From Ideonella aquatica (lineage in GTDB: Bacteria; Pseudomonadota; Gammaproteobacteria; Burkholderiales; Burkholderiaceae_C), in the NCBI RefSeq assembly GCF_018069755.1, contig NZ_JAGQDE010000009.1:124001-188000 (forward strand): DNA of 64,000 nt. Direction: 5' to 3'. Below, in pieces: positions 10,346-17,881 of the stretch. The position numbers and the translations under genes were made by a program. Positions within the stretch are counted from its first letter, which is position 1, and each line of letters opens with the position of its first letter. The notes beneath the pieces are model-generated. The model was not told where the DNA came from. It made no database searches and saw nothing but the letters and a program-made list of their open reading frames with translations.

Positions 10346-10804
10346 ATGAACACTCGTCTGATTCGCCTGTCCTCCGTCATCGTCTGCGCCGGCCTGCTGG
10401 CCGCTTGCGCCAACCCGCGCCAGGCGCCGGTCTATGAAGAAGGCGCCACCTGGTCGAGCCAGCGCGCCGGCCTGCAGTACGGCACGATCCGCGCCATCGA
10501 CGATGTCGCCCCGCGTGAGAACACCAGCGGCGCGGGTGCGCTGATCGGCGGTGTCGTGGGCGCCGTGGTCGGCCGCCAGTTCGGCTCCGGCAGCGGCCGC
10601 ACCGCGGGCACCATCGTCGGCGCGGTGGGCGGCGCGGTGGCCGGCAACGAGATCGAAAAGCACAACACCCAGCCGGCTGCTCGCTTCCGCGTGCAGGTGG
10701 CGATCGACGGCGGTCAGATGCGCACCTTCAACCTAGCGCAGATCGGTGACCTGCGACCCGGCGACCGCGTGGTGGTCGACGGCCAGACCGTGCGCCGGTA
10801 CTGA
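10346..10804 (+). CDS. Glycine-zipper lipoprotein (SlyB/Rick17kDa-like)
   Basis: A 152-residue outer-membrane type lipoprotein. The signal peptide ends in the lipobox LAAC with Cys21 as the lipidated residue. Residues about 62-106 form a glycine zipper with two hydrophobic halves (GALIGGVVGAVVG and GTIVGAVGGAVAG), typical of the glycine-zipper 2TM family that includes SlyB/PcpY. The C-terminal part ends RPGDRVVVDGQTVRRY, which is the usual tail of these proteins. ATG 10346 is chosen because it places the signal peptide at the N-terminus; the frame is open upstream from 10298. Likely role: envelope integrity. It is followed by the thrS control region. Confidence 0.88.
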   Translation: MNTRLIRLSSVIVCAGLLAACANPRQAPVYEEGATWSSQRAGLQYGTIRAIDDVAPRENTSGAGALIGGVVGAVVGRQFGSGSGRTAGTIVGAVGGAVAGNEIEKHNTQPAARFRVQVAIDGGQMRTFNLAQIGDLRPGDRVVVDGQTVRRY

Positions 10805-10820: not shown

Positions 10821-10826
10821 TACAAT
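10821..10826 (+). promoter_or_regulatory. Candidate -10 box of the thrS operon
   Basis: TACAAT matches the sigma-70 -10 consensus at five of six positions and lies about 44 bases before the leader peptide start. No convincing -35 hexamer is seen 17 bases upstream. Transcription would begin near 10833, giving an untranslated leader of about 37 bases with a ribosome site (AAAGG at 10854-10858). Confidence 0.4.
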
Positions 10827-10869
10827 CGGGCCATCCCCACCACAAGAGCAGAGAAAGGCGACACGGGTT

Positions 10870-10908
10870 ATGACACCGCGAACTACGAGCTTCGTCACTG
10901 AGGTTTAG
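10870..10908 (+). CDS. thrS leader peptide (threonine-rich, 12 aa)
   Basis: A 13-codon frame, ATG to TAG, encodes [12 protein letters not shown]. Four of the twelve residues are threonine (codons ACA, ACT, ACG, ACT), with two in a row; ACA and ACT are uncommon codons in this GC-rich genome. It is preceded by AAAGG 11 bases upstream and is followed after 50 bases by a strong intrinsic terminator placed directly before thrS. This is the layout of a ribosome-mediated attenuator: slow decoding at Thr codons when charged tRNA-Thr is scarce would favour an antiterminator. CGGCCGCG at 10910-10917 can pair with CGCGGCTG at 10963-10970 in the 5' arm of the terminator, and so could serve as that antiterminator. 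Inference from sequence only. Confidence 0.65.
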
Positions 10909-10958
10909 TCGGCCGCGGCTGGAATACACACGACCCCACGTCACCCCTGTTCCTGAAG

Positions 10959-10988
10959 AAAGCGCGGCTGCATCAGCTGCGCTTTTTT
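10959..10988 (+). terminator. Intrinsic terminator/attenuator before thrS
   Basis: A near-perfect stem pairs AAGCGCGGCTG (10960-10970) with CAGCTGCGCTT (10974-10984) around a 3-base loop, with one G-U pair, followed by a run of six T (10983-10988). The thrS start codon is only 20 bases further on, so this hairpin is positioned to control thrS and not to end the upstream lipoprotein gene. Confidence 0.85.
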
Positions 10989-11008
10989 CTTTTCCGAAGG
11001 ATGTCTCG

Positions 11009-12928
11009 ATGATCACGATCACGCTGCCCGATGGCTCCCGACGCGAATTCCCCGCGCCTCTGACCGTGGCCGAGGTGGCCGCCTCGATCGGCACCGGCCT
11101 GGCCAAGGCCGCGCTGGGCGGCAAGGTGGGCAGCGGCGCCGCGGCGCGCCTCGTTGACACCAGCTTCCTGCTGGAGCAAGACAGCGCACTGGCCATCATC
11201 ACCGACAAACAGCCCGAAGGCCTGGAGCTGATCCGCCACTCCACCGCCCACCTGCTGGCCTATGCGGTCAAGGAGCTCTTCCCTGAGGCCCAGGTGACGA
11301 TCGGCCCGGTGATTGACAACGGCTTCTACTACGACTTCTCGTACAAGCGCCCGTTCACCCCGGAGGACCTGGCCGCCATCGAGAAGAAGATGGCCGAGCT
11401 GGCCAAGAAGGACGAGCCGGTGGTGCGCCGCGTGCTGCCGCGCGACGAGGCGGTGGCGTACTTCAAGGGCCTGGGTGAGCACTACAAGGCCGAGATCATC
11501 GGCAGCATCCCGGCCGACCAGGACGTGTCGCTGTACCGCGAAGGCGCCTTCGAGGACCTGTGCCGCGGCCCGCACGTGCCCAGTACCGGCAAGCTCAAGC
11601 ACTTCAAGCTGATGAAGGTGGCCGGCGCCTACTGGCGCGGCGACCACCGCAACGAGATGCTGCAGCGCGTCTACGGCACCGCCTGGGCCACCAAGGAAGA
11701 GCTGCAGCAGTACCTGACCATGCTGGAGGAGGCCGAGAAGCGTGACCACCGCCGTCTGGGCCGCGAGCTGGACCTGTTCCACATCGACGAGCACAGCCCC
11801 GGCACGGTGTTCTGGCACCCCAAGGGCTGGGCCGTGTGGCAGGAGGTGGAGCAGACCATGCGCCGCGTCTACCGCGACAACGGCTACCAGGAGGTCAAGG
11901 GTCCGCAGCTGCTGGACCAGGGCCTGTGGGAGAAGACCGGCCACTGGCAGAAGTACCGCGAGAACATGTTCACGACGGAATCGGAGAAGCGCGACTACGC
12001 GCTCAAGCCGATGAACTGCCCCGGCCACATCCTGATCTTCAAGCAGGGCATCAAGAGCTACCGCGACCTGCCGCTGCGCTTTGGCGAATTCGGCCAGTGC
12101 CACCGCAACGAGCCCACCGGTGGCCTGCACGGCATCATGCGGGTGCGCGGCTTCACGCAGGACGATGGCCACATCTTCTGCACCGAGGACATGATCCTGC
12201 CCGAGTGCCTGGCCTACACCACGCTGCTGCAGAAGGTCTACCGGGACTTTGGCTTCACCGAGATCCTCTACAAGGTGGCCACCCGCCCCGAGCAGCGCAT
12301 CGGCAGCGAGGAGGCCTGGGACAAGGCCGAGCACGCGCTGATGGAAAGCCTGCGCCAGAGCGGCGTGGACTTCGTCGTCTCGCCGGGCGACGGCGCCTTC
12401 TACGGCCCGAAGATCGAGTACACGCTGAAGGACGCGCTGGGCCGCCAGTGGCAGTGCGGCACGATGCAGGTCGATTTCTTCATGGCCGAGCGCCTGGGTG
12501 CCGAGTACGTGGCCGAGGACGGCAGCCGCCGCCACCCGGTCATGCTGCACCGCGCCATCGTCGGCAGCCTGGAGCGCTTCATCGGCATTCTGATCGAGCA
12601 GCACGCCGGCGCGCTGCCGCTGTGGCTGGCGCCGACCCAGGTGGTGGTGGCCAATATCACCGACGCCCAGGCCGATGCTGTGCAGGAAGTGGTGAAAACG
12701 CTGCAAAAACAAGGAGTTAGGGTCCAGGCAGATTTGCGCAACGAGAAAATCACGTATAAAATCCGTGAGCATTCCATGCAGAAGGTCCCGTTCATCCTGG
12801 TCATTGGTGACAAGGAGAAGGCAAGCGGGGCCGTCGCGGTGCGCGCCCGGGGCAACCAGGATCTGGGGGTGATGCCGGTCAGCGACTTCCTCGCGAAGCT
12901 CGCGTCCGACATCGCAGCCAAGGTCTGA
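11009..12928 (+). CDS. thrS: Threonine-tRNA ligase
   Basis: ThrRS charges tRNA-Thr and edits mischarged Ser-tRNA-Thr. At 639 residues it has the full bacterial layout: N-terminal TGS domain ([15 protein letters not shown]), the editing domain with HSTAHLL near residue 75, the class II catalytic core with [11 protein letters not shown], whose Cys is one of the zinc ligands, motif 2 (FRHEP-type region [19 protein letters not shown]), motif 3 ([17 protein letters not shown]), and the anticodon-binding domain at the end. The ATG has GAAGGA eight bases upstream. It leads the operon thrS-infC-rpmI-rplT-pheS-pheT-ihfA and appears to be controlled by the leader peptide and terminator just upstream. 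Confidence 0.98.
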
Positions 12929-13010
12929 GGACGCCTCGGCTTTTTTGCGCTCCAGAGTTTTTGTGTCGGGTCCCGTCCTTGCCTCGGGGCCTGTTGCAGG
13001 GGTTTGAACC

Positions 13011-13562
13011 ATCGCTACCTTTCTCGACCGCCGGATTCCCAATGTCGAGCGCAAGCACCGACTGAACCGCGAGATCACCGCTTCCTCCGTGCGCCTGAAC
13101 GGCCTCGAGAACGAGCCGCTGGGCATCGTCAGCATCCAGGAGGCGCTGCGCTTGTCGGCCGAACACGACGTGGATCTGGTTGAGATCGCGGCCCAGGCCG
13201 ATCCGCCGGTATGCCGGCTGATGGACTACGGCAAGTTCAAGTACCAGGAGCAAAAGCGCGCCGCCGAAGCCAAGTCCAAGCAAAAGATCATCGAGGTCAA
13301 GGAAGTCAAGTTCCGGCCCGGCACCGACGAAGGCGACTACAACATCAAGATGCGCAACCTGCGCCGCTTCATCGCCGAGGACGGCGACAAGGGCAAGGTC
13401 ACTTTGCGCTTCCGGGGCCGTGAGATCACCCACCAGGACATCGGCATGCGCCTGCTGGAGCGCATCCGCGACGAACTGGCGGATGTGGCAGTGGTCGAGC
13501 ACATGCCCAAGCTGGAAGGCCGCCAGATGATCATGGTGCTGGCGCCCAAGAAGAAGTCGTAA
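13011..13562 (+). CDS. infC: Translation initiation factor IF-3, AUC start codon
   Basis: IF-3 binds the 30S subunit, checks start-codon pairing and keeps the subunits apart. The normal IF-3 N-terminus ([21 protein letters not shown]) is encoded in frame from 13011, where the codon is ATC and not ATG, GTG or TTG. With this start the protein is 183 residues, the expected family length; a GTG at 13089 would delete the first 26 residues, including part of the N-terminal domain. A purine-rich AGGGG lies just upstream. Rare starts (AUU in E. coli) make infC translation sensitive to IF-3 itself, so the same autoregulation is inferred. The N-domain, basic linker ([15 protein letters not shown]) and C-domain are intact. 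Confidence 0.93.
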
Positions 13563-13675
13563 CCGATTCGCGCCCTGGTCTGGTCACCGGGGCGATGAAG
13601 AAAAGCCGCTGCAGGCCATCAAGCGCACCACGCCCGTGGGGCCGCCCAGCAGAGGTCATTGATAAGGAGCATCAC

Positions 13676-13879
13676 ATGCCCAAGATGAAGACCAAGAGCA
13701 GCGCCAAGAAGCGCTTCCGCGTCCGCCCGGGTGGCACCGTCAAGCGCGGCCAAGCCTTCAAGCGTCACATCCTGACCAAGAAGACCACCAAGAACAAGCG
13801 TCACCTGCGTGGTGCAGCCAATGTGCATGAGACCAACATGGGTCACATGGCGCAGATGCTGCCGTTCGCTGGTCTGTAA
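13676..13879 (+). CDS. rpmI: Ribosomal protein bL35
   Basis: A 67-residue basic protein starting [14 protein letters not shown], the canonical bL35 N-terminus, and ending at [11 protein letters not shown] 13676 is preceded by AAGGAG at 13664-13669; the longer open frame from 13595 is not conserved-looking and would add 27 residues. bL35 is a 50S protein and in many bacteria is translationally controlled by bL20 together with rplT, which follows 24 bases later. The 113-base gap from infC may hold that control region. Confidence 0.97.
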
Positions 13880-13903
13880 TCACCACCAAGAAGGAGTCAA
13901 CAT

Positions 13904-14260
13904 ATGCCTCGCGTCAAACGTGGTGTGACCGCCCGCGCTCGTCACAAGAAGGTTCTGGCCCTCGCCAAGGGTTTCCGCGGCCGCCGCAAGAACGTCTTCC
14001 GCATCGCCAAGCAGGCGGTGATGAAGGCGGGCCAGTACGCCTACCGTGACCGCCGCACCAAGAAGCGCGTCTTCCGCCAGCTGTGGATCGCCCGTATCAA
14101 CGCTGCCACGCGTGGTCTGGGTCTGACCTACAGCAAGTTCATCGCCGGCCTGAAGAAGGCCCAGATCGACCTGGACCGCAAGGTGCTGTCGGACATGGCG
14201 ATCCACGATCCGGCCGCTTTTGCTGCCATCGTCGACAAGGTGAAGGCCCAGCTCGCTTGA
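13904..14260 (+). CDS. rplT: Ribosomal protein bL20
   Basis: A 118-residue very basic 50S assembly protein starting [16 protein letters not shown], the full expected length. bL20 binds 23S rRNA and, in Gammaproteobacteria and Firmicutes, represses its own operon; whether that applies here cannot be read directly. Strong AAGGAG ribosome site seven bases upstream. Followed by an intrinsic terminator that separates it from pheS. Confidence 0.98.
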
Positions 14261-14314
14261 TCCTCTGGAGGCTGCCGCCGGTGCCCGCGCGCCGGCAGCG
14301 CCCTCAGGACCTCG

Positions 14315-14344
14315 AAGGCCTCACCTGCCGGTGCGGCCTTTTTT
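14315..14344 (+). terminator. Intrinsic terminator between rplT and pheS
   Basis: The stem AAGGCC/GGCCTT (14315-14320 with 14335-14340) continues, after one T-C mismatch, into CACC/GGTG with loop TGCC, and is followed by six T. The pheS start is only 20 bases downstream, so the hairpin is probably an attenuator or partial terminator that separates ribosomal protein genes from pheST expression. Confidence 0.8.
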
Positions 14345-14363
14345 CATTTTTTCCCTGCTTGCA

Positions 14364-15422
14364 ATGAACGATCTCGAACAACTGGTGCAGGCCGCGCGCG
14401 AGGATTTCGCCGCCGCCGTGACACCGGCCGAGCTGGAGAACGCCAAGGCCCGCTTCCTGGGCAAGGCTGGTCGCGTCACCGACCTGCTCAAGGGCATGGC
14501 CGCGCTCAGCCACGAGGACAAGAAGACCCGCGGCGCCGAGATCAACCAGACCAAGCAGGCGATCGAGTCGCTGCTGAGCGAGCGCCGTGCCGCGCTGGCC
14601 GACGCCGAGCTGCAGGCGCAGCTGCGCGCCGAGGCGCTGGATGTCACGCTGCCCGGCCGCCAGCCGCGCGCCCAGGGGGGGCTGCACCCGATCACCCGCA
14701 GCATGGAGCGCGTCGAGGCGATCTTCGGCTCGATGGGTTTTGATGTGGCCGACGGCCCCGAGATCGAGGAAGACTGGTTCAACTTCACCGCGCTGAACAC
14801 GCCGGCCGACCACCCGGCGCGCTCGATGCACGACACCTTCTACGTCGACACGGTGGCGCCCGATGGCTCAGGCCACCTGCTGCGCACGCACACCAGCCCG
14901 ATGCAGGTGCGCTACGCGGTGCAGCACGTCAAGCGCCACCAGGCGCTGCTGGATGCCGGCCAGACCATGCCCGAGATCCGCGTCATCGCGCCGGGCCGCA
15001 CCTACCGCGTCGACAGCGATGCCACCCACTCGCCGATGTTCCACCAGTGCGAAGGCCTGTGGATCGGCGAAAACGTGTCGTTCAAGGACCTGAAGGCGGT
15101 GTTCGCCGACTTCTTCCGCACCTTCTTCGAGACCGACGACCTGACGATCCGCTTCCGGCCGTCCTTCTTCCCGTTCACCGAGCCTTCGGCCGAGGTGGAC
15201 ATCGCTTTTGCCTCGGGTCCGCTCAAGGGCCGCTGGCTGGAGGTGGCCGGCTCTGGCCAGGTGCATCCGAACGTGGTGCGCAACTTCGGCCTCGACCCCG
15301 AGCGCTACATCGGCTTCGCCTTCGGCATGGGCTTTGATCGCCTGACCATGCTGCGCTACGGCGTCAACGACCTGCGCCAGTTCTTCGACGGCGACCTGCG
15401 CTTCCTGGCCCAGTTCCAGTGA
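14364..15422 (+). CDS. pheS: Phenylalanine-tRNA ligase alpha subunit
   Basis: The alpha subunit of the (alpha-beta)2 PheRS, 352 residues. An N-terminal coiled coil (residues about 1-90, which binds tRNA) leads into the class II catalytic core: motif 2 region [21 protein letters not shown], motif 3 [12 protein letters not shown] (written here as [16 protein letters not shown]), and the conserved ending [14 protein letters not shown] take ATG 14364 as the start; upstream in-frame codons only translate the T-run of the terminator. There is no strong ribosome site, which fits coupling with upstream translation (a small frame ending in the overlapping ATGA is described in the findings). Confidence 0.97.
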
Positions 15423-15460
15423 GCCCGCGCGTCCCCGAGAACCCCCAACGGATCTGAAGC

Positions 15461-17881
15461 ATGCAATTCCCCGAGTCCTGGTTGCGCGAGTTCTGCAACC
15501 CCGCCATCACCACCGCCGAACTGGCCGAGCTGCTGACCATGGCCGGCCTGGAGGTCGAAGAGCTGCGCCCGGTGGCGCCGGCCTTCTCGAAGATCGTGGT
15601 GGCCGAGATCGTCGAAGCCGAACAGCACCCCAATGCCGACCGCCTGCGCGTGTGCCGTGTCGATGCCGGCCCGCACAGCAAGGACGGTCCGCTGCAGATC
15701 GTCTGCGGCGCGCCCAATGCGCGCGCCGGCATCCGCGTGCCGCTGGCCCTGGTGGGGGCTGAGCTGCCGCCAGCGGAAGAGGGCGGTGCGCCCTTCGCGA
15801 TCAAGGTGGGCAAGCTGCGTGGCGTCGAGAGCTTTGGCATGCTGTGCTCGGCGCGCGAGCTCCAGCTCAGCGAGGACCACGGCGGTTTGCTCGAGCTGCC
15901 GCTGGATGCGCCGCTGGGCCAGGACATCCGCCAGTTCCTGAACCTGGATGACACGCTGTTCACGCTCAAGCTCACGCCCAACCTGGCGCACTGCCTGAGT
16001 GTCTACGGCATTGCGCGCGAGGTGAGCGCGCTGACCGGTGCGCCGCTCGTCACGCCCGCGATCGCCCCGGTGGCGCCGGCCATCGACGCCACGCTGCCGG
16101 TCGACGTGCAGGCCAGCGACCTGTGCGGTCGTTTCAGCGGCCGCATCGTGCGCGGCGTCAACCCGAAGGCGGCCACGCCGGCCTGGATGGTCGAGCGCCT
16201 GGCGCGCTGCGGCCAGCGCGCGGTGAGCCCGCTGGTCGACATCTCGAATTACGTGATGTTCGAGTACGGTCGGCCCTCGCACATCTTCGACCTGGACAAG
16301 ATCCACGGCGGCCTGCAGGTGCGCTGGGCGCGCGCGGGCGAGTCGCTCAAGCTGCTCAACGGCAACACCGTCGAGCTCGATGGCCAGGTCGGCATCATCG
16401 CCGACGACCAGGCGGTGGAGTCGCTGGCCGGCATCATGGGCGGCGACGCCACGGCCGTGTCGGACGACACCGCCAACATCTACATCGAAGCCGCCTTCTG
16501 GTGGCCGACCGCGGTGGCCGGACGCTCGCGCCGCTACCACTTCGCCACCGACGCCGGCCACCGCTTCGAGCGGGGTGTTGATCCGCAGGGCACGGTCGAA
16601 CACATCGAGCGCATCACCGCGCTGGTGCAGCAGATCTGCGGCGGCCAGGCCGGCCCGGTGACCGATGTGCAGCCGGCGATGCCGCAGCGCGCACCGGTGC
16701 GCCTGCGCGTGGCGCGTGCCGCCAAGGTGATCGGCATGCCGGTCACCCAGGCCCAGTGCGCAGGCGTGCTGCAGCGCCTGGGCCTGCCGTTCACACAAGC
16801 CGACGGCGAGCTCACCGTGACGCCGCCCAGCTGGCGCTTTGACATCACGCTCGAGGAAGACCTGATCGAGGAGGTGGCGCGCGTGCTGGGCTACAACAGC
16901 CTGCCCGACACCCCGCCGCAGGCGCCGGTCACCGCGCGCGTGCGCCCCGAGGCGCGCCGCGGCGCCCACGGCGTCCGCCATGCGCTGGCCGCACTCGACT
17001 TCCAGGAGACGATCAACTTCAGCTTCGTCGAGGCACGCTGGGAGCAGGAGCTGGCCGGCAACCCCGACCCGATCAAGGTGCTGAACCCGATCGCCGCGCC
17101 GCTGGCCGTGATGCGCTCCAGCCTGCTGGGCAGCCTGGTGGGCGTGCTGAAGTACAACCTGGCGCGCAAGGCGCCGCGGGTGCGGGTGTTCGAGCTGGGC
17201 CGCGTGTTCCGCCGCGATGCCTCGGTGGCCTCCACTGACGCCAGCGTGGCTGGCGTGTCGCAGCCGATGCGCGTGGCGGGCCTGAGCTGGGGACCGGCCA
17301 CGCCGCTGCAGTGGGGCCAGCCCGAGCGCCCTGTTGACTTCTTCGACCTCAAGGCTGATGTCGAGCGCCTGCTGGCGCCGCGCGTGGCCCGCTTCGTCCC
17401 GGCCGAACACCCGGCCATGCACCCGGGCCGCTGCGCCGAGGTGCTGCTGGATGGCGTGAGCATCGGCCACCTGGGCGAGCTGCACCCGAAGTGGCGTCAG
17501 GCCTACGAGCTGCCGTCGGCGCCGATGCTGTTCGAGCTGGACCTGGCGGCGGTGCAGCAGCGCAATGTGCCGCTGGCCCAGCCAGTACCGCGTCAGCAGG
17601 CGGCACTGCGCGATCTGGCGCTGGTGGTGTCCGATCAGGTGGCGCACGACGCGCTGGTGGCCACGCTGGCCGATGATCCGCTGGTGCGCCAGGTCACACT
17701 GTTCGACATCTACCGGCCCAAGGCCCCCAGCGCCGACATCGGCGCCGGCGAGCGCAGCCTGGCCCTGCGCCTGGCGCTCCTCGACGACGAGGCCACACTG
17801 ACCGACGAGCGCATCGACGCCGCCGTGGCCGCCGCCGTGGCCCGCGCCCAGGCCGCGTTTGGCGCTCGCCTGCGCGGCTGA
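15461..17881 (+). CDS. pheT: Phenylalanine-tRNA ligase beta subunit
   Basis: The beta subunit of PheRS, 806 residues, full length. The order is: N-terminal EMAP/tRNA-binding domain ([20 protein letters not shown], residues about 45-65), B3/4 editing domain that clears Tyr-tRNA-Phe (region with [19 protein letters not shown]), the B5 DNA-binding-like domain, the inactive class II core, and a C-terminal ferredoxin-fold anticodon-binding domain ([16 protein letters not shown] to the end). It starts 38 bases after pheS on the same transcript. No unusual residues seen. Confidence 0.97.

Follow-up and report, generated by a model that had tools for sequence, protein, structure and literature searches.

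The thrS gene of Ideonella aquatica is preceded by a short threonine-rich frame and an intrinsic terminator, which together very probably act as a transcription attenuator of the classic ribosome-mediated kind, with charged tRNA-Thr as its signal, as judged by comparative sequence analysis and model folding. The original prediction, made from one stretch of 64,000 nucleotides (hereafter the window), had proposed a set of parts sufficient for attenuation by tRNA-Thr, and this proposal is now supported by conservation, by selection for threonine and by model folding. Comparison across genomes establishes, at the sequence level, a conserved Thr-selected frame, a linked terminator and a conserved geometry; the folding states of the leader are predictions of the model only. 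We infer a response to charged tRNA-Thr, translation of the leader frame and an effect on infC-rpmI-rplT-pheST.

Organization of the thrS leader region

The leader frame (10870–10908, forward strand) encodes 12 residues and reads ATG ACA CCG CGA ACT ACG AGC TTC GTC ACT GAG GTT TAG. As originally described, it contains four threonines, two of them adjacent, at positions 2, 5, 6 and 10, encoded by ACA, ACT, ACG and ACT. These codons had been called rare in the genome, which is true for three of them (ACA and both ACT) but not for ACG: among the 140 Thr codons of eight genes in the window, ACA occurs 4 times, ACT 3 times and ACG 48 times. The codon of Arg4, CGA, is likewise rare (4/280 in the same eight genes). 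A Shine-Dalgarno-like AAAGG (10854–10858, forward strand) provides the putative ribosome binding site expected ahead of an attenuator frame. Its position is conserved: 123 of 140 loci have AAAGG no more than 30 nt from the leader ATG, and in 116 of those 123 it starts 15–16 nt ahead of the ATG. Further upstream, TACAAT (10821–10826, forward strand) is a possible -10 element of a thrS promoter, for which no good -35 was seen by eye. Of 140 loci, 84 have a TANA(A/C)T sequence no more than 75 nt from the leader ATG, a count made without a chance control, and in 64 of these it is located 48–55 nt upstream. A consensus scan for promoters gave none.

The predicted intrinsic terminator (10960–10988, forward strand) consists of a stem-loop, AAGCGCGGCTG-CAT-CAGCTGCGCTT, at 10960–10984 with an 11-bp stem, including one G-U pair, and a 3-nt loop, and a U-tract TTTTTT at 10983–10988. 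The end of the U-tract is 20 nt from the thrS ATG (11009), so that the hairpin and its six T are indeed directly ahead of thrS, as the original prediction had stated. The A-rich 5' flank of the terminator can also pair with the U-tract in the predicted fold, giving 16 bp in all, and this probably explains why the terminator is not among the matches listed by a simple terminator scan. The region 10860–11008 folds better than all of 200 dinucleotide shuffles (z -3.39). When no minimum score is imposed, a stem with a T-rich tail is present in 179 of 180 loci, the window's own included, which places the intrinsic terminator of an attenuator between the leader and its first gene; the remaining locus (L136) ends 43 nt past the motif.

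The gene behind the terminator, thrS (threonine--tRNA ligase; 11009–12928, forward strand), matches TIGR00418 with 717 bits against a cut-off of 384. It is followed on the same strand by infC, rpmI, rplT, pheS and pheT (13011–17881), all with NCBIfam matches above cut-off, and read-through into thrS could, judging from this gene order, affect all five. Several additional features were observed in this run of genes. Between thrS and infC, a terminator-like hairpin with TTTTTT (12925–12950) extends over the stop codon of thrS. The infC start at 13011 appears to be ATC, which is unusual, and the list of open reading frames contains a later GTG. The gap between rplT and pheS (14261–14363) contains a long GC-rich hairpin and then, immediately ahead of the pheS ATG, a terminator-like GGCC...GGCCTTTTTTC; inspection by eye showed no leader rich in Phe there.

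Conservation of the leader and selection for threonine

All 60 genomes searched matched thrS, 36 of them from the same family as I. aquatica. One family member (G023) was left out, having only a weak partial match that may belong to another synthetase. The remaining 35 form a set chosen without regard to the motif, and the leader is present before thrS in 34 of them, the window's own included, with the start pattern ATG(A/G)CACCGCG(A/G)AC. Loss of the frame with persistence of the terminator had been named in advance as the pattern contrary to attenuation; instead, the frame is kept in these 34 of 35 family genomes, and the Thr codons are conserved in the leader frame only, with synonymous changes. 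The single exception (G034/L023) lacks an MTPRT leader. A terminator-like hairpin is retained before thrS at this locus. Another family member (G008/L032) has a leader that begins MAPRT and contains a single Thr.

The leader can also be followed outside the family. Among 300 genomes of the order, 35 contain a single match each to an 18-base core with at most one mismatch, and these 35 include all 9 members of the family. The reversed pattern gave no match in the same 300 genomes. The exact 19-base core was found in at least 118 stretches of named genomes; Comamonas, Acidovorax, Variovorax, Polaromonas, Roseateles, Massilia, Janthinobacterium, Herbaspirillum, Collimonas and Cupriavidus are among the matches listed. 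The core is also present in two metagenome-assembled genomes labelled as bins from outside this group, 'Alphaproteobacteria' and 'Chitinophaga'; these labels are probably binning errors. We assembled 148 core loci from the 118 named-genome stretches among the matches listed and from the 30 of 35 order genomes that came with their locus. A thrS start follows the core at a distance of 113–306 nt in 146 of these 148 loci, among the matches listed; in the other two the sequence runs out 347 and 43 nt past the start of the leader, too early to tell. The parts described originally lie at the positions given for them, and their presence is not accidental.

This linkage bears on a reading in which the hairpin is an ordinary terminator of the upstream gene and the leader frame a chance ORF. 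The upstream reading frame in the window ends at 10804, and in many other families the upstream gene is tRNA-Val; several families have thrS behind tRNA-Val with the terminator alone between them, as that reading would predict. It is nevertheless highly improbable, given that the core is followed by thrS in nearly all of the loci listed and that the frame is selected for Thr, as described below.

The 180 loci, less the short L136, were thinned to 141 non-redundant leaders of 10–30 residues. Since most of them were fetched by the core, codons 2–5 are fixed by the way in which they were found, and selection was assessed from codon 6 to the end. Thr accounts for 275 of 1252 codons (22%) in frame 0, compared to 29/1252 and 43/1252 (2–3%) in the two shifted frames. 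At codon 6, 105 of the 141 leaders have Thr, spelled ACA in 23, ACC in 23, ACG in 42 and ACT in 17. The family set, which was not selected by the core, gives 74/289 Thr codons in frame and 6/289 and 9/289 in the shifted frames. The frame is therefore enriched in the cognate codons of the synthetase, with two or fewer Thr in 21 of the 141 leaders. By these codon counts the leader frame is coding and selected for Thr.

The leaders with only one or two Thr would also suit an arrest peptide or a general sensor of translation stress, in which the invariant MTPRT start, with its rare ACA, CGA and ACT codons, pauses ribosomes in response to a signal other than Thr-tRNA charging, with the same antiterminator logic. 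Such a device could likewise account for codons 2–5 being fixed to the nucleotide in the unselected family set (ACA 33/34, CCG 34/34, CGA 34/34, ACT 32/34), although pairing by strand 1 (see below) may explain part of this fixity. Past codon 5, however, Thr occurs at 6 to 10 times its shifted-frame frequency with free choice of synonyms, divergent families drop M-T-P and retain runs of Thr (MQLNRTTTTS, MSFRTTTTGTLNQG), and the gene downstream is thrS. We therefore consider an arrest peptide quite improbable, and attenuation by charged tRNA-Thr the better explanation of the leader.

Thr-rich leaders that diverge from the core sequence were found ahead of thrS in several other families of the order; in addition to the two just mentioned, MFKRTTTTRISR and MFRTSTTTQS are examples. 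The survey drew on thrS regions from 95 of 125 genomes with a thrS match that belong to the order but lie outside the family, and from 40 of 86 genomes of other orders of the class. Regions without a terminator above threshold were excluded (24 of 95 and 25 of 40, respectively), and a short ATG or GTG frame ahead of the terminator was counted when it had at least three Thr and at least 20% Thr. Such frames occur in 23 of 35 family regions (mean 1.0 and maximum 4 in 100 shuffles) and in 23 of 71 regions from the rest of the order (mean 1.2, maximum 4), and in both sets Thr is the residue most often enriched. The next residues by the same criterion are Ala in the family (4/35) and Arg in the rest of the order (16/71); the latter, we think, stems partly from tRNA-Val remnants and a conserved Arg. 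Other orders of the class yielded 1 of 15 (mean 0.25, maximum 2 in 100 shuffles), with Ala and Ser leading at 3/15, and thus make no case for a spread beyond the order. In many families of the order, thrS was observed directly behind tRNA-Val with only a terminator separating the two; no leader frame was seen in these cases (L242, L264, L229, L272 and others).

In E. coli, ThrRS binds its own mRNA at a translational operator, and no leader peptide is known to take part; the gene is the same as in the window, and the mechanism differs from the one proposed here. If ThrRS repressed its mRNA through a tRNA-like operator here as well, the small frame would be incidental. This reading has the E. 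coli precedent in its favor and is most improbable for the window: the terminator leaves only 20 nt before the thrS start, and it is linked to a leader frame under selection for Thr.

Pairing strands and ribosome-dependent folding

Three strands, all on the forward strand of the window, could form mutually exclusive structures. Strand 1 (CCGCG, CCGCGAAC; 10876–10880) lies within the leader frame and, in the minimum-energy fold of the full leader, pairs with 10914–10918 when not covered by a ribosome. Strand 2 (CGGCCGCG; 10910–10917), the 5' half of the predicted antiterminator in folds with a ribosome at Thr5/Thr6, begins after a single base (10909) behind the stop codon. Strand 3 (CGCGGCTG; 10963–10970) is common to the predicted antiterminator and the terminator. 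The antiterminator proposed originally, 10910–10917 with 10963–10970, is recovered by the fold with a ribosome at Thr6, as 8 bp with one G-U. The spacing appears to be constrained, as 101 of 141 loci have strand 2 starting within -15 to +9 nt of the end of the stop codon, compared to a mean of 59.7 and a maximum of 75 in 30 shuffles.

The proposed mechanism is as follows. RNA polymerase would transcribe the leader, and a ribosome would begin the 12-residue frame. When Thr-tRNA is scarce, the ribosome would pause at Thr5/Thr6 and cover strand 1. Strand 2 would then be available for pairing with strand 3, which belongs to the 5' arm of the terminator, so that thrS would be transcribed. When Thr-tRNA is ample, the ribosome would reach the stop codon and cover strand 2, allowing the terminator to form. 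With no translation, strand 1 would pair with strand 2, and the terminator would again form.

To model these states, a ribosome was placed with its A site either at codon 5, which is Thr in all 141 core leaders used, or at the stop codon, and the RNA beneath it was removed; the cover reached 12 nt past the first base of the A-site codon. The RNA ended before the 3' arm of the terminator, and the measure was the probability, averaged over leaders, of upstream pairing by the inner 5' arm. For the core leaders this probability is 0.543 with no ribosome, 0.832 with a ribosome at codon 5 and 0.619 at the stop, compared to means of 0.681, 0.708 and 0.648 for 40 dinucleotide shuffles of the region from codon 5 to the terminator. 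Codon 5 exceeds the stop by 0.213 (shuffle maximum 0.103) and the ribosome-free state by 0.289 (maximum 0.052); the stop value alone falls inside the shuffle range of 0.608–0.675. The 24 divergent leaders, which were picked by hand and in which codon 5 is not always Thr, behave similarly: values of 0.660 (none), 0.757 (codon 5) and 0.554 (stop) give differences of 0.204 from the stop (shuffle maximum 0.162) and 0.097 from the ribosome-free state (maximum 0.044). The leader of the window itself displays a pronounced switch, with 0.463, 0.990 and 0.168, respectively, matched by none of the 40 shuffles. In the model, therefore, an antiterminator that depends on ribosome position and excludes the terminator is found for the mean of the leaders and for the window. 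Taken one at a time, 87 of 141 core leaders and 14 of 24 divergent ones have a codon 5 value higher than the stop value by 0.1, with the reverse in 4 and 1, and 100 of 141 core leaders have one higher than the ribosome-free value by 0.1, with the reverse in 7; many leaders thus show no clear drop. The shuffle statistics ignore kinship among leaders.

In the predicted fold of the window without a ribosome, the terminator forms and 10876–10880 is paired with 10914–10918. As long as the 3' arm has yet to be synthesized, pairing between the leader and strand 3 is possible too. In all states folded for the window, the complete terminator is the more stable structure, and the antiterminator must therefore act kinetically.

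Folding with the ribosome in place was a sharper test than duplex energies or the exchange of partners between genomes. Duplex energies for strands 1:2 and 2:3 are mildly better than those of shuffles, with a rank of at most 5 in 100 in 35 and 26 of 165 leaders, respectively. Upon partner exchange, pairing of strand 1 with the strand 2 of its own genome shows no advantage over pairing with those of other genomes (mean rank 0.48), and pairing of strands 2 and 3 shows only a slight one (mean rank 0.42 for 139 core and 0.37 for 24 divergent leaders); these negative or weak results provide no sign of compensatory covariation, which strand 1, hardly varying, could not reveal.

Relationship to known systems

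A close parallel in principle is the pheST attenuator of E. coli (pheM), which has a short leader rich in the cognate Phe followed by an intrinsic terminator. The leader in the window shares this arrangement of a synthetase operon, a cognate-rich short leader and an intrinsic terminator, but differs in that it concerns Thr and thrS, heads the whole thrS-infC-rpmI-rplT-pheST run and has an MTPRT start fixed at the nucleotide level. The leader of the E. coli thr operon, thrL, also combines Thr codons with a terminator, controlling biosynthesis genes and sensing Ile as well; the principle is the same, whereas the leader in the window precedes a synthetase gene. The T-box of Firmicutes senses tRNA charging through transcription attenuation as well, with the RNA binding tRNA directly and no leader peptide known to take part. 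No T-box was among the covariance-model matches listed for the leader (E up to 1 and up to 5), and no Rfam family reaches its cut-off there. Thr_leader (RF00506), the family of the E. coli thr operon leader, was rejected at 16.3 bits against a cut-off of 55. Two Burkholderia sRNAs, ncS025 and ncS16, gave weak full-length matches and were also rejected (14.5 and 18.8 bits against cut-offs of 46 and 48). ncS025 matched none of 100 genomes of the order, and its control genomes were also silent.

Vitreschak (2004) and Lopatovskaya (2010) are said to be earlier comparative surveys of attenuators in proteobacteria. For Streptomyces lividans, a leader peptide thrL (MKRVRPFLETTPGFVPAR) of 18 residues with two adjacent Thr has been proposed ahead of thrS, on a leaderless transcript described with one hairpin and no U-rich terminator (PMC8079986). 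The two systems are alike in having a Thr-containing leader peptide ahead of thrS; unlike that of the window, thrL, as presented there, is actinobacterial and without a clear terminator, and the peptides bear no likeness by eye (PMC8079986). PMC5688073 describes attenuated 5'UTRs in B. cenocepacia, including those of two tRNA synthetase genes given by locus tag (BCAL3373 and BCAL3436), and assigns ncS16 its own start site in the ompA 3'UTR; a porin is the reported target of ncS25 (PMC10117139). A survey of premature terminators (PMC2965389) does not name thrS in its main text and mentions threonyl-tRNA synthetase once, in passing, for E. coli autoregulation. The main text of a survey of leader genes (PMC4833913) names neither thrS nor threonine, and PMC4603805 contains none of the terms sought. 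No beta-proteobacterial thrS attenuator was found in the titles and text passages of the literature searched, which covers few subscription journals. The kind of regulation is thus known, and a Thr leader on thrS is not wholly new in view of what is presented for Streptomyces (PMC8079986); the beta-proteobacterial member seems undescribed in the literature searched.

A more far-reaching proposal, which we offer tentatively and regard as unlikely in its entirety, is that the attenuator predates the split of many beta-proteobacterial families and that the MTPRT start, fixed in its nucleotides and with the rare codons ACA, CGA and ACT, is itself a pausing device coupled to strand 1. The leader would then read several Thr-tRNA isoacceptors, as its codons suggest, and would couple the supply of ThrRS, IF3, L35, L20 and PheRS to the charging of Thr-tRNA.

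If attenuation by charged tRNA-Thr is correct, thrS of a large beta-proteobacterial group, including Comamonas, Variovorax, Massilia, Janthinobacterium, Cupriavidus and others, would be regulated unlike that of E. coli, and an operon of translation-factor and ribosomal-protein genes would be under Thr-tRNA control. The tiny leader gene is worth annotating, and its natural variants would offer a ready series for testing how leader peptides evolve.
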